The notes below the pieces were generated by a model that was not told the DNA's origin, did not search any database, and was given only the letters and a program-made list of their open reading frames with translations. The position numbers and the translations under genes are program-made. A DNA stretch of 20,724 bases from the IMG/VR virus record IMGVR_UViG_3300035204_000686, positions 1 to 20,724 of that record. One strand, given 5' to 3'. Of the stretch, positions 4,280 through 14,366 are shown one piece after another. Source of the DNA: a virus. Position 1 is the first letter of the stretch. Every line of letters begins with the position of its first letter.

Positions 4280-6411
4280 TAGACGTACTCCTGTCGGACC
4301 CGGTTCCCGTAAGCGAGCCCGCGCTCTTGTTGGCGAACGAGGTAGGTGTCCACAGACTCACCGAGGACCCTTCCGTCCAGCTCGACTGTAGTCCTGATGG
4401 TCTGCTCTCCACCACCACCCTGCATCTGCGCCTTTTGGATTGCGAGCATCTCGGTGATGTGCTTAGTCCCCACGGGATCGACCAGCGTCTCGTCGTTCCG
4501 CATGACGATGGCAGAGTGGTTGTTGAGCCCGGCTTTCCTGAGGACATCCCCGGTAAGCCCCGCGTCACCGATGCCCTGAATGCTCGTGCCTACGATAGTC
4601 GCGATCTCTGCCGCACCAGCAACGCCTGCTGCTATCCCGAGGGGAATGTTGGGCACAGGGGGGACGGCAAGCGCTTCAGAAACAGCCCTTGCCGTGTTCA
4701 CGGTGGCTGTCGCCAGGGCAAAAGCCTGCGAAATATGGAAGAGCGCGACGGCATGCTTCTTAGCCTCCTCATCACCCCTTTCGTAGGCAAGCATCGCAAG
4801 CTCAGACAAGGAACTGAACAAACTAGAGAAACTCTGAGTAACCTGCCCTGCGGTGTCGAGGGAGCGCTCCATCGCTTCCCGCTCTATGTCTGCCTGCTTT
4901 GCGGCTGACTCTTGGATTAGTTTGATCTTCCCGTCGCTATATTCTTTATCGGCCACCGCGCGCAGCCGCAGAGACTCTTCATATTCAAGGCCCCCCAACC
5001 TAAGAGCCTTAGAGATAGTGTCGTGCTCTCTCGACCACCGTTCAGTCAGTTCGGTCTCTGGGGTCTTGTAAAACGTCTCATACAGAGCGTTCTGCAAGCC
5101 CTCCATCTCCTTGTTTTGAGCTTTAATCCACCTGAGCAACTCCTTGGCGGCATCCGTCTGACCTTCGGTTGCCTTCGTGTCTTTCTTTCTGTTCCCAGCT
5201 AGCGCGGCTATGTTTTGCCTGAGCTTCTTGCCGTCAAACAACTCCTTTCCTTGACCCTCAACGTGTTTTCTGTGCTCTGACCGGAGCGCACCATAAGCCT
5301 TCTCCTGGGTCTTCAAGTTGCGGTTTGCGCGGGAAAGGGCTTCGTTGAGCGCTGCCGTGGCGTCTTTCGCGCTCTTAATTGAGTCACTGTAGAGACCCAC
5401 CGACTTCAGTGCTTCCTTAAACCCCATCCCGGCTTGCATCTCCAACAGAGCGTCATCAAGCGAGCTTATGCGGTCTTCTGTTGCCTGTATCTGAACCTCA
5501 ACTTGGCGCATGTCTCCGACGAGCGTGTTCGAGAACGTCTTGCCTGACTGTTTTTGAATGCCGAAGAAGGCCTGCGAAACAAGAAGCAAGCCCTCTGCCA
5601 AATCAAGGACCTTTATAAGGAAGTCGGATATTGCTCTTCCGTCTAACGCAACAAGGAAGTTTGTAAGCGCTGTTGCTGCCGAAACAAGTGCCGGGATCAA
5701 CTCCCTCCCCATCTCGATCTTTAGCCCCCGGAAAGCGTGCTCAAGGTCTGCCTGTGCGTCAACCAGGGACTCTGAGCTTGCGAGAACGTCCTCGCTCATA
5801 ACAGCGTCAAGGTCCTCAAGGACGGACTTCATGTCGGTGATCCCCTTGGACCCGCCCGCCATCATGTTCGCCATCTCGGTGCCGGATCGCCCCAAGAGGA
5901 GCATCATCGAACCTGTGCGCTCTGCACTTGGCCCCATCGCAGCAAACCTATTGGCTAAATCGAGAAAAACATCATTCACGTCTCGCAGAGTGCCGTCGCT
6001 CTTCATCAGTTCGATGTCAAGAGCCTCAAATGTCTCCTTGATTTGCCTGGATCCGTTTCGAGCATCGACCATGACGCGACCGAGCTTCTTTAGTCCGTTA
6101 GATACGTGCTGGACGCTCGTTCCTGCGCGCTTCGCCGCGAACTCGAAAACCTGATACTGCTCTGCAGTGACGCCGACCATCCTGGCCTGCTTCGCGAGCC
6201 TGTCTCCAAGAACCGCAAGCTCCACCCCCGCCTGCTTGAAAGACCCAATAAGCAGCCTCCCCGCTGCGTCTAGTGCCTTATAAGCAAGCACTGCCGCGCC
6301 CGCCTTAACAGCCAACGCACCCATCCCCGCGCCCGTTTTCTTCGATTGCTTTGAGACCTGCCTTAGCCCGCGAACCGCCCCCCTTACGTTCGCTCCGATC
6401 TTGAGGTTCAT
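4279..6411 (-). CDS. Tail tape measure protein (710 aa)
   Basis: Sets tail length and spans the tail lumen before ejection. The N-terminus (residues 1-60) is basic and Gly/Ala-rich, as in many tape measures. Residues 60-230 carry the typical LGDRLAKQARMVGVTAEQYQVF region followed by VF.DLANRFAAMGPSAERT and LLGRSGTEMANMM, characteristic of TP901-type tape measures. Hydrophobic segments lie near 235-285 and 585-615, with a charged coiled-coil-like middle (about 300-560). The C-terminus ends with NHSAIVMRNDETLVDP and ELDGRVLGESV. It follows the frameshifted chaperone pair, as expected, with an ATGA overlap and a good CAGGAG SD. By the rule of about 0.15 nm per residue the tail would be near 105 nm (inference). 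Confidence 0.93.
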   Translation of the reverse strand: MNLKIGANVRGAVRGLRQVSKQSKKTGAGMGALAVKAGAAVLAYKALDAAGRLLIGSFKQAGVELAVLGDRLAKQARMVGVTAEQYQVFEFAAKRAGTSVQHVSNGLKKLGRVMVDARNGSRQIKETFEALDIELMKSDGTLRDVNDVFLDLANRFAAMGPSAERTGSMMLLLGRSGTEMANMMAGGSKGITDMKSVLEDLDAVMSEDVLASSESLVDAQADLEHAFRGLKIEMGRELIPALVSAATALTNFLVALDGRAISDFLIKVLDLAEGLLLVSQAFFGIQKQSGKTFSNTLVGDMRQVEVQIQATEDRISSLDDALLEMQAGMGFKEALKSVGLYSDSIKSAKDATAALNEALSRANRNLKTQEKAYGALRSEHRKHVEGQGKELFDGKKLRQNIAALAGNRKKDTKATEGQTDAAKELLRWIKAQNKEMEGLQNALYETFYKTPETELTERWSREHDTISKALRLGGLEYEESLRLRAVADKEYSDGKIKLIQESAAKQADIEREAMERSLDTAGQVTQSFSSLFSSLSELAMLAYERGDEEAKKHAVALFHISQAFALATATVNTARAVSEALAVPPVPNIPLGIAAGVAGAAEIATIVGTSIQGIGDAGLTGDVLRKAGLNNHSAIVMRNDETLVDPVGTKHITEMLAIQKAQMQGGGGEQTIRTTVELDGRVLGESVDTYLVRQQERGLAYGNRVRQEYV

Positions 6412-7270
6412 TTGTTCCGTCTCCTGGCTCGCTCTGACTCAATTTCTGAGTGATGAGCGGATACAAGCTGTGATTCAGTCTCGATAATACCTATGGCATC
6501 GAGGAGGCGGGCGTCTTGTTCTGAGAGCGGACCCCCTTCGGGCAGAGCCTTGAATCGAGACCATGCACTCCACTGATGGATAGCAGACCAGATCCAGGGC
6601 TCGCACTCCCGCAGCGGACACCCGGACATCTTGCGGTCTACGGGATAGCACCCTTCGGGTCGGTTGCGAGGCAGCTTGACTGGGGTGCGGAAGCGAAGCC
6701 TTCCTTGCTCATCTGGATCCCCGTCAAGGCACCTCGTCCCTCGGCACGCGCCCCACAACTTGCACCCACCCCACCCACTCTTTGACCAAAGTTCTGACTC
6801 TTCTTTCGTGGGCTCGCTCTTCGCGACGTACTGGAAGGCTGCCCTTAGTCTTTTCCCTCTTCCTCGCTCACCGACCCCTCCTCGATGATGTGCGCGCAAA
6901 GATCCGCAGACAGGTCCTCCAACTGAACCAACGCCTCGAGCAACTCGTCGCGAGAGGGAACCTCGTCGTTGATTGTCAGGTCTCGGCATCCGACCACAAG
7001 ATCCCGCATCAAGTCTCCCCGGAATCGAGCCATCATCTCGTGCGCCTCTTGCTGGGACGCGACGACCCCCTCGATGGCACCCTCGGAAAGAGCCTCTGGG
7101 TCGCCTTGAGTGGCCTCTGAGAGCCCGGTGACTGCCTTCTGGATCCGAAGAGACAACTCTAGGTGCCTCGTCCTCCATCCGTGGGTTATAGGTCGGTACA
7201 GGATGACCGCAGTGTCTCCACTTGCGTCCTCCATCCTGAACTCTCGGACGTTCCATGTATTGAGTTCCAC
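6408..7270 (-). CDS. Tail assembly chaperone GT fusion made by -1 frameshift (287 aa)
   Basis: Ribosomes slipping back one base on GGGAAAA (6857-6851) leave the G frame after Lys140 and continue with RLRAAFQYV for 147 more residues to the TGA at 6410-6408. The -1 frame is open throughout and has no plausible start near the junction; its next ATG is in KMSGC. The extension contains six cysteines in two sets (C-x5-C-x4-C, 26 residues, C-x9-C-x4-C), suggesting a metal site. A tryptophan-rich segment (EPWIWSAIHQWSAW) then GGPLSEQDARLLDAI recalls the T domain of siphophage chaperones, which in lambda recruits tail tube protein to the tape measure. It ends in ATGA overlap with the tape measure gene. 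The frame fusion is inferred from sequence. Confidence 0.82.
6845..7270 (-). CDS. Tail assembly chaperone G-like protein (141 aa)
   Basis: Short soluble acidic protein between the tail tube and tape measure genes, the lambda G position. It starts with a beta-rich segment (residues 1-40), then a helical, Glu-rich body, and ends VSEEEGKD just after the slippery heptamer. In lambda G is made in excess over GT and coats the tape measure during assembly; the same is inferred here. The start is GTG at 7270-7268 with GGAG 7 bases upstream. There is no enzymatic motif. The identification rests on position, length and the frameshift site more than on sequence similarity. Confidence 0.82.
   Translation of the reverse strand: MELNTWNVREFRMEDASGDTAVILYRPITHGWRTRHLELSLRIQKAVTGLSEATQGDPEALSEGAIEGVVASQQEAHEMMARFRGDLMRDLVVGCRDLTINDEVPSRDELLEALVQLEDLSADLCAHIIEEGSVSEEEGKD
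6851..6857 (-). promoter_or_regulatory. Programmed -1 ribosomal frameshift site GGGAAAA
   Basis: On the minus strand the zero-frame codons read GAG GGA AAA GAC TAA, so the heptamer is G GGA AAA, which fits the X XXY YYZ rule and is one base from the lambda G-T site GGGAAAG. The zero-frame stop is two codons downstream. An SD-like GAGGAAGAG abuts it upstream and GAGGAGGGG lies further upstream at 6875-6883. A short AAGG/CCTT stem could form downstream, but it is weak. Confidence 0.85.
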
Positions 7271-12280: not shown

Positions 12281-12679
12281 CTAAGTGGTTTCAATCCAGG
12301 CGGGGGCCCAAAGGAAGGCGGCAACGTCGCCGTTAGCGGCGTCTTGGAGGGCGATCCCGAATGTGTGGGAGTCCGTCCCGCCGCCGGCAGCTCCAGCGAC
12401 GGCTACGGCGTTTCCGCTGCCATCCGACCCGGCCTGTTGACCGGCGTTGATGCTTCCGCCGCACTTCACCTTGATGATGCCGCCAACCTGGACCGGAAGA
12501 TACACTGCCGTCGAGGAGCCATCAGCTACGTCGTTGGTCAGCGCACCAATCGCGAGGTCGTTTGCACCACAAACGTCCATGTCGTCGCTGCCGTTGGGCT
12601 TAACGAGAAGCCATTCGCTAGAAGACATGTCGGCGGCAGTTCGCCGCGTAAGGATAGAGGGGTCAAAGGGGGTGCTCAT
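12281..12679 (-). CDS. Capsid cement / decoration protein, DUF2190-like (132 aa)
   Basis: Small beta-rich, Gly/Ala-rich protein between the protease/scaffold and capsid genes, where phages often encode cement or decoration proteins. The middle (LPVQVGGIIKVKCGGSINAGQQAGSDGSGNA) and end (HTFGIALQDAANGDVAAFLWA) match the 'G.....V.aGd.i..Gd.v..d.dG....G.a.....aGd...v' pattern of DUF2190-type cement proteins, which stabilise the shell. ATG start at 12679 with AGGAG SD; its SD overlaps the preceding stop. Confidence 0.75.
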   Translation of the reverse strand: MSTPFDPSILTRRTAADMSSSEWLLVKPNGSDDMDVCGANDLAIGALTNDVADGSSTAVYLPVQVGGIIKVKCGGSINAGQQAGSDGSGNAVAVAGAAGGGTDSHTFGIALQDAANGDVAAFLWAPAWIETT

Positions 12680-12690
12680 CGTAGAGTCTC

Positions 12691-13212
12691 CTAGGAGTCG
12701 AGGTTCTCGGCATCGTATGCCGCGAGCTTGGTGGGGTCGGAAAGAACAGCCTGCATCGCGCGAGCGAACGCTGCTGCCGGGTCAAGGCCTTCCTCTGCCG
12801 AGATTTTCTCGGCCAGAGCGGTGCATTCAGCAGAAACAGAAGAGCGCTGAACCCGCTCAGCGTCTGTTCCGGCGTTGCCAATTTCGGTGACGCCAATTCG
12901 GTTCAAGAAATAAGCGCGGTTGGCGCGCTCTTCGCCGCAGTGTGTATAGATGTCGAGGTAGTCGTCACGCTCGCTGGCTGCGATTCGACCATCAGCACAA
13001 GCCCGATCAAGCATTCGCTCAATCTCCTTGGCCTCAAGCTCTTCAAACTTGGCTTTGATGGTGTCTCGGTCTTCAGTCACCGTGTCGAGAGCCTCAGAAA
13101 GCGAGTCAGCCTTGGCCGCGCGCTCTCGGAGAGACTCAATCTCAGCGAGAATCTCAGTCTCTGTGACGCCTTCGCCCAGAGAAAGAGCTTGCGAAATATT
13201 CGATGTACCCAT
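12691..13212 (-). CDS. Nested capsid scaffold from internal start (173 aa)
   Basis: In-frame ATG at 13212-13210 (Met328 of the protease gene) has an SD AAGAGGA eight bases upstream, better than any start at the front of the gene. Translation from it gives only the C-terminal scaffold region: a Glu/Ala-rich coiled coil (TETEILAEIESLRERAAKA, then ELEAKEIERMLDRACADGR) and a short end that could bind capsid. Phage Mu gpZ and lambda Nu3 scaffolds arise the same way from an internal start in the protease gene. Its existence here is inferred from sequence. Confidence 0.6.
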   Translation of the reverse strand: MGTSNISQALSLGEGVTETEILAEIESLRERAAKADSLSEALDTVTEDRDTIKAKFEELEAKEIERMLDRACADGRIAASERDDYLDIYTHCGEERANRAYFLNRIGVTEIGNAGTDAERVQRSSVSAECTALAEKISAEEGLDPAAAFARAMQAVLSDPTKLAAYDAENLDS

Positions 13213-14193
13213 GTCTGGATTCCTCTTTTCAGATGCTGCCACTGGCTGCATGCCAGCGACGAAAGGTTCGTTGGTAAGAGTGCCGCCGATCAGAGCCCAC
13301 TCTCCGAGCTTTTCGCCCGTCTTCTTCGACCGAGCACCGTCCGCAGGGACTGCTTCGATGCTGAATCCATCAAACTCCCCAGCCCGAATCCTACGCTTGG
13401 CTTCTTCGGTCCACCTAACGGTTCCCATAAGGCTTGCCGAACCGTCGTCGTTGGCTCGAACATGAACGTCGATGATGCGCCCGGCAGCCTTGGTGCTCTC
13501 TGCGTCGAGGGCTCCCGAGATAGCCGCATGGTTGTACCCCACAGGCGCCCCGGTGGAAAACCAGCCCTCGGACTTAATGAGGGCATAACCACGAGACATC
13601 GATTCGATGTCTTCTACAGAGAGGGACACCTTGCGGTCTGAGGCTCTCCCGTAGTGTGTTCCCGAGCGAGCCAGCTCGACGGTCTTGTCAATTTCGACAT
13701 CGTCAAGCCGAAGAGCCTCTGACCATTCAGACATCTGCTCGACTTCGCGAGAGGCTTCCTGCTGGTCCTCTTGGATCTCTTCGCTCTCCTCTGGGGTCTC
13801 GCTCATGTCCTCTTCGCGCTCGCCCTCAAGAATCTTGCGCCCCTTGGCCTGGACCTTAGCGATGATGTCTGCCGACAACTTTGCCTTGGGTGCTTGCGCG
13901 ATTGCGTTGCGGAGATGCGGAAGGTCTACCTTCCCCGTGGCGTCTCGGTAAGGGAAGTAGCGAAGCGAGCGGGGAGTGGTGCGACCGTCGTCGTCCTTCT
14001 CGCCGCCCGGAGCGATATACAGAAACGCGGAGTCAGGCAAATCATTAATGAATGCCGTCGTCCATTCTGCGTAGGTCTGCTCCACTTCCTCGATCATGCG
14101 CTTAGTTTGCGGAAAAGACCGCCAGTTTCGCAAGGACGACCAGGACAAGGAAACTAGAAGTCGTCTCCGCGCCGACCCTTTCGGGACAGCCAT
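12691..14193 (-). CDS. Mu gpI-like prohead protease fused to scaffold (500 aa)
   Basis: Cleaves or matures the prohead. Domains: residues 33-110 form a DUF6582-like module (INDLPDSAFLYIAPGGEKDDDG, TTPRSLRYFP, LPHLRNAIAQ); an acidic linker lies at 123-160; the protease core at about 165-320 carries GYNHAAI (His222), GEFDGFSIEAVP (Ser278) and LTNEPF, matching the catalytic His/Ser and the 'LTN.P' motif of Mu I-type proteases; residues 328-500 are a coiled-coil scaffold. The start is uncertain: neither the ATG at 14193 (overlapping the previous gene by 40 bp) nor ATG 14097 (giving 468 residues) has a good SD. ATG 14097 is plausible. Confidence 0.87.
   Translation of the reverse strand: MAVPKGSARRRLLVSLSWSSLRNWRSFPQTKRMIEEVEQTYAEWTTAFINDLPDSAFLYIAPGGEKDDDGRTTPRSLRYFPYRDATGKVDLPHLRNAIAQAPKAKLSADIIAKVQAKGRKILEGEREEDMSETPEESEEIQEDQQEASREVEQMSEWSEALRLDDVEIDKTVELARSGTHYGRASDRKVSLSVEDIESMSRGYALIKSEGWFSTGAPVGYNHAAISGALDAESTKAAGRIIDVHVRANDDGSASLMGTVRWTEEAKRRIRAGEFDGFSIEAVPADGARSKKTGEKLGEWALIGGTLTNEPFVAGMQPVAASEKRNPDMGTSNISQALSLGEGVTETEILAEIESLRERAAKADSLSEALDTVTEDRDTIKAKFEELEAKEIERMLDRACADGRIAASERDDYLDIYTHCGEERANRAYFLNRIGVTEIGNAGTDAERVQRSSVSAECTALAEKISAEEGLDPAAAFARAMQAVLSDPTKLAAYDAENLDS
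13221..13227 (-). promoter_or_regulatory. Internal Shine-Dalgarno for nested scaffold
   Basis: AAGAGGA on the minus strand, eight bases before the in-frame ATG at 13212-13210. It is the only strong SD found in front of any start in this gene, which suggests it drives separate scaffold synthesis. Confidence 0.6.
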
Positions 14194-14366
14194 TGGCTGC
14201 GATAGGGCTCTGAGGCTGGGGGGATGTCGTTGACTTCACGCAGGTAGCGAACCCCTTGCGTGGAGATTGCCTCTCCGTTTTCCTGAGCGATGACAGAGAC
14301 GACATAGTCGGGATAGAGACCGATCCCTTCTGGGAGGTCTGTCCGCTTTGGTCTTCCGCCGGCCAT
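14154..14366 (-). CDS. Unknown small protein, head module (70 aa)
   Basis: No family recognised. It starts at ATG 14366-14364, which overlaps the portal stop as TAATG, and it overlaps the annotated protease start by 40 bp. The sequence is hydrophilic, with a basic start (GGRPKRTDLPEG) and end (SRKGRRGDDF), and has no membrane segment or cysteine. Between portal/MuF and protease genes it could be a minor head factor. The reading frame is supported by exact fit between genes and not by homology. Confidence 0.6.
   Translation of the reverse strand: MAGGRPKRTDLPEGIGLYPDYVVSVIAQENGEAISTQGVRYLREVNDIPPASEPYRSQWLSRKGRRGDDF

Follow-up and report, generated by a model that had tools for sequence, protein, structure and literature searches.

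The protease-scaffold gene of this virus very probably contains a second, SD-directed start at position 13212 that makes the scaffold domain alone (173 aa), besides the long protease-scaffold protein. The computed support for this reading consists of a conserved start codon, an SD and low RNA structure at a domain boundary, and the position of the start is homologous to that of the Mu Z start. A sequence-only reading of the window (the whole stretch of 20,724 nucleotides analysed here) had already proposed a scaffold from a nested start with its own SD, and the comparison with relatives described below supports that proposal. The features at issue are the following.

12691–14097, minus strand: protease-scaffold gene in its likely extent, 468 aa (ORF; start corrected from relatives; matches to PF10123 and phrog_328)
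12691–13212, minus strand: nested ORF in the same frame, whose 173-aa product is predicted to be a scaffolding protein equivalent to gpZ (conserved ATG, aligned to the Mu Z start)
13210–13212, minus strand: nested start codon ATG (Met328 of the ORF as first drawn, Met296 of the likely gene)
13221–13227, minus strand: SD AAGAGGA of the nested start (−6.0 kcal/mol, 8-nt spacer; SD kept in all relatives)

We propose that the product of this gene is a head maturation protease of the Mu type, followed at the C terminus by a scaffold domain. Ribosomes entering at 13212 would produce the scaffold, and ribosomes starting at 14097 would produce the protease with the same scaffold tail. Through this shared tail, a minority of protease molecules could co-assemble into the prohead and later digest the scaffold. 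From the sequence we infer translation at 13212, an excess of scaffold over protease, and a capsid-scaffolding function of the nested product.

The long gene and its own start

The sequence-only reading drew the ORF from 14193 to 12691 on the minus strand. Opposite the N-terminal 32 residues of this ORF, several relatives show in-frame stops or sequence that does not code, and all relatives begin at the Met corresponding to 14097. A start at 14193 is therefore almost certainly an error, and the real start likely lies at 14097. The nested Met, which was numbered correctly as residue 328 of the drawn ORF, would then be residue 296 of a 468-residue protein. The accompanying claim that the gene's own start has no good SD holds for either position. 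Computed against a canonical anti-SD, which is assumed for the host, the duplex energy is −2.1 kcal/mol at 14193 and −0.1 kcal/mol at 14097; an SD is found at neither, and most other genes in the window have one. The weak own start is typical of the window's clade, not universal in the family: close relatives range from −2.9 to +2.7 (L002, L008, L012, L041, L046, L050), L004 is intermediate (about −4 to −5.5), and more distant members have an SD at this position (L014, −7.7; L018, −9.3).

The stretch ahead of the likely start and the parts of the encoded protein are located as follows.

14098–14153, minus strand: non-coding, conserved leader ahead of the protease gene, lacking an SD (alignment of relatives)
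13819–14070, minus strand: N-terminal domain (AEWTTA...DLPHLRNAIAQ), not present in the Mu-type protease and found on unrelated phage proteins too
13273–13689, minus strand: protease core (PF10123 match; invariant His in YNHA and Ser in GEFxxxS; beta-rich part of the model)
13165–13263, minus strand: disordered linker with the nested SD and start (AlphaFold2 pLDDT below 50 at residues 279–311; indel-rich alignment)
12994–13161, minus strand: continuous 56-residue helix of the scaffold, likely a coiled coil (models, mostly pLDDT 73–95)
12697–12837, minus strand: three helices at the C terminus of the scaffold, which may bind the capsid (models; role by analogy with the P22 and phi29 scaffolds)

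The leader lies between the stop of a small ORF and the protease start, and contains the conserved blocks TAGTTTCCTTG, TCCTTGCGGA, CGCA, and CTAG before the ATG. Since the Mu record has a late promoter annotated just upstream of gene I, a promoter or a non-SD control element in this leader is possible. Read-through or frameshifting from the upstream small ORF was ruled out because the frame across the leader differs between clades. A candidate RNA hairpin comprises only 4 pairs and lacks covariation, and an Rfam search of the window returned no match.

Predicted protein and neighbouring genes

The protease assignment is based on matches to PF10123 (Mu-like_Pro, E=1.6e-13; 51.4 bits against a cut-off of 25.2) and to phrog_328 (head maturation protease, E=4.4e-21). 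H190 and S246 are invariant in 15 relatives (NHA and GEFxxxS motifs) and are likely the catalytic residues. In L006, the corresponding ORF (4965–6476) carries a 17-residue tandem duplication (TMSLMGSVRWTEEAKRR) within the protease core, perhaps an assembly artefact. The N-terminal domain shares 52% identity with part of a 661-aa protein of Thermoanaerobacterium phage THSA-485A and matched nothing in Pfam or NCBIfam. This domain is mobile: it precedes a Mu-type protease here, is joined to a protease of the ClpP type in L025, and elsewhere forms part of long proteins.

Phage scaffolding proteins generally consist of a long helix with additional helical parts, which is the form predicted here by AlphaFold2 models of medium overall confidence. 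The sequence-only reading had described the 173-residue product as only a coiled coil. This description was too narrow, as the models predict a C-terminal helical part in addition to the 56-residue helix, with a short helical unit between the two. Judging from these models and from the helix-loop-helix of the P22 and phi29 scaffolds (PMC3185693), the long helix may act as a coiled coil and the C-terminal part may bind the capsid. A PDB fold search with the full model gave no significant match; a viral fold search matched phage proteases and scaffolds, with low TM-scores for this medium-confidence model.

The protease gene is flanked on one side by a Mu-type portal gene (PF06074) and a 70-codon ORF, and on the other by a D-like gene with the major capsid gene behind it. 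The small ORF (14154–14366) starts on the stop codon of the portal gene (TAATG) and is conserved in relatives; profile searches found no family match for it. The D-like gene, which is the next gene (12281–12679), has as its best PHROG match phrog_673, a family labelled head scaffolding protein (E=4.7e-17). This match would suit a reading in which the nested start is used but its product has another role, the scaffold being made from 12281–12679 instead. We consider this very improbable. The homologue of Mu gpZ is the nested product, not the product of 12281–12679, and the latter gene occupies the place between protease and major capsid gene that is held by lambda D and by gene h of PaMx73, a proposed decoration gene (PMC4378225). 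Its product did not match the gene h family (phrog_1731). By its position only, 12281–12679 would encode a decoration protein, and the scaffolding label of phrog_673 may be wrong.

The proposed nested start and its conservation among relatives

The minus strand around the nested start reads ...GCATCTGAAAAGAGGAATCCAGAC ATG GGT ACA..., and from this ATG the frame runs for 173 codons to its end at 12691. The sequence-only reading had placed the SD AAGAGGA and the 8-nt spacing before an in-frame Met correctly, but in calling this SD strong it overstated the case: most other SD-led genes in the window reach −6.4 to −11.3 kcal/mol. The nested SD is only moderate, and by strength alone it would not stand out from chance, with −6.0 kcal/mol or better in 13% of the in-frame 15-nt windows of the protease-scaffold family genes. 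SD strength was dropped as proof of a nested start, since 13–23% of in-frame windows are equally good. Two other Met codons were rejected as candidates. That of KEIERM (alignment column 443) has a stronger chance SD in the window (−8.5), an SD that is missing from three close relatives, and that of MSDW/MSEW (Met154 of the drawn ORF) is kept in close relatives only, without a consistent SD.

What sets the nested site apart from chance, as far as sequences can tell, is conservation rather than SD strength. The sequence-only reading had suggested conservation of ATG and SD among relatives as a check, and the outcome was positive. Among relatives gathered from viral contigs, with identities as low as about 41%, every one of the 22 junctions examined (window included) has at the protease-scaffold boundary a Met preceded by an SD at a distance of 4–9 nt. 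The SD energies range from −5.4 to −8.5, and the site is kept even where indels change the length of the linker by as many as about 24 codons. For comparison, start codon and SD occur together at 51 of 8268 in-frame codons, a background of 0.6% per codon. The nested-start column is the only conserved Met column with an SD in every member; in another near-invariant Met column the count is 4/14. A search of genome contigs added one relative, from an uncultured proteobacterium, with a start codon and SD in the same column, and a search of plasmid records for relatives gave no match.

The SD itself takes several forms among relatives (AAGAGGA, ACAAGGA, CGCAAGGAG, AACAGGAGT, CCGGAGA). In the ten closest junctions the pair AAG AGG is invariant and Arg is always encoded by AGG, which accounts for about 4% of other Arg codons, while the codons from this pair to the ATG are variable, with an indel of one codon among them. 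A synonymous-recoding test on 16 representatives gave individually modest values and a combined Fisher P of about 3e-7, which is indicative only since the sequences are related. The test was not significant in L018, L055 and L057 (P 0.4–0.8), because in these the SD lies in Lys-Glu or Pro-Glu codons that provide it almost for free. Low RNA structure is expected at true translation starts. In each of the 21 genes tested, a 45-nt stretch around the nested start has less structure than the background of its gene (mean rank 0.90; P=6e-5, again indicative only for related sequences).

The scaffold might instead be released only by proteolysis, the protease cutting the linker near VAASEKR, with the ATG and the SD-like sequence as by-products of a cleavage motif. 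P2 gpO works without a known nested start, and the conserved VAAS stretch before the SD, within a linker predicted to be disordered, would suit a cleavage site. We regard this explanation as very improbable. The residues that encode the SD vary (KR, TR, RKE, NRS, PE), yet SD and start codon persist; the start residue turns to Val only as GTG, and RNA structure is low, none of which a cleavage motif would require. That the site is merely an ordinary Met behind a purine-rich coding stretch is hardly credible, for although SDs of equal or better energy are frequent in the family genes and the later KEIERM Met has a stronger, non-conserved one, all relatives including Mu keep the nested site at the same boundary, far above the per-codon background.

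Relation to lambda and to Mu-like phages

In the Mu records (NC_000929/AF083977) the start of gene Z is internal to gene I. An alignment of Mu gpI with the family puts Met179 of gpI, the annotated Z start, into the column of the window's nested Met, and an SD is present. In an independent profile check against phrog_328, residue 1 of Mu Z fell at profile position 173, and residue 5 of the nested product of the window at 179. About 7–8 annotated Mu-like phages besides Mu keep a start codon in this column. Start codons with an SD of −5.6 or better occur there in phages of Pseudomonas (three), Vibrio, Mannheimia, Klebsiella, Myxococcus and Meiothermus; four of these phages use GTG, and GTG177, GTG183 and GTG202 of the Pseudomonas and Vibrio phages stand in the nested-Met column. 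In a Helicobacter prophage, an ATG with a strong SD lies 8 residues from the column, at a point where the alignment is gapped. For PaMx73, Val177 with its SD had been put forward earlier as a putative internal start at the same place (PMC4378225), and our alignment recovers it.

A wider reading, which we offer tentatively and hold to be somewhat doubtful, is that the whole Mu-like protease family shares the nested scaffold start as an ancient, near-universal hallmark, and that in the window's clade the SD-less protease start and its leader of ~56 nt hold down or regulate the protease separately, while the scaffold is initiated freely. Already on the main reading, many environmental phages that would be annotated with one protease gene also encode the scaffold in a second, hidden gene. 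A simple rule for finding it is to look for a start codon preceded by an SD directly behind the protease domain. The protease-to-scaffold ratio in this family becomes a testable question of translation initiation.

Lambda C/nu3 and Mu I/Z are known systems that invite comparison, and the sequence-only reading had cited both as precedents. Lambda Nu3 is sound as an analogy, not as a homologue. As in the window, the lambda scaffold gene occupies, in frame, the 3' end of the protease gene, and the D gene and then the capsid gene follow in the same order. However, C is annotated as an S49-family peptidase (NC_001416), whereas the window protease matched PF10123 and no S49 model, and the SD strengths are opposite to those of the window: C has a strong SD (−12.0), nu3 a weak one (−2.7). 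The window gene is not a member of the lambda kind.

The Pseudomonas Mu-like phages of the PaMx73/D3112/Ab30 group share with the window the putative internal start, at Val177, and its SD. They differ from the window in their GTG start codon, in the absence of the extra N-terminal domain, and in an identity of about 30% over the matched stretch.

The Mu gpZ precedent stands as a homologous one. Mu I (protease) and Z (scaffold, p20) correspond to a homologous protease-scaffold protein (PF10123, phrog_328); where the protease domain ends, both have an in-frame nested start with its SD in the same alignment column. The window protein is unlike that of Mu in its extra N-terminal domain of about 90 residues, in the own start without SD behind a conserved leader, and in the gene order of portal, small ORF, protease, D-like gene and capsid gene. 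With an in-frame internal start in the Mu Z column and an SD upstream of it, the window gene is, by its sequence, a further member of the known Mu I/Z kind of nested overlap.
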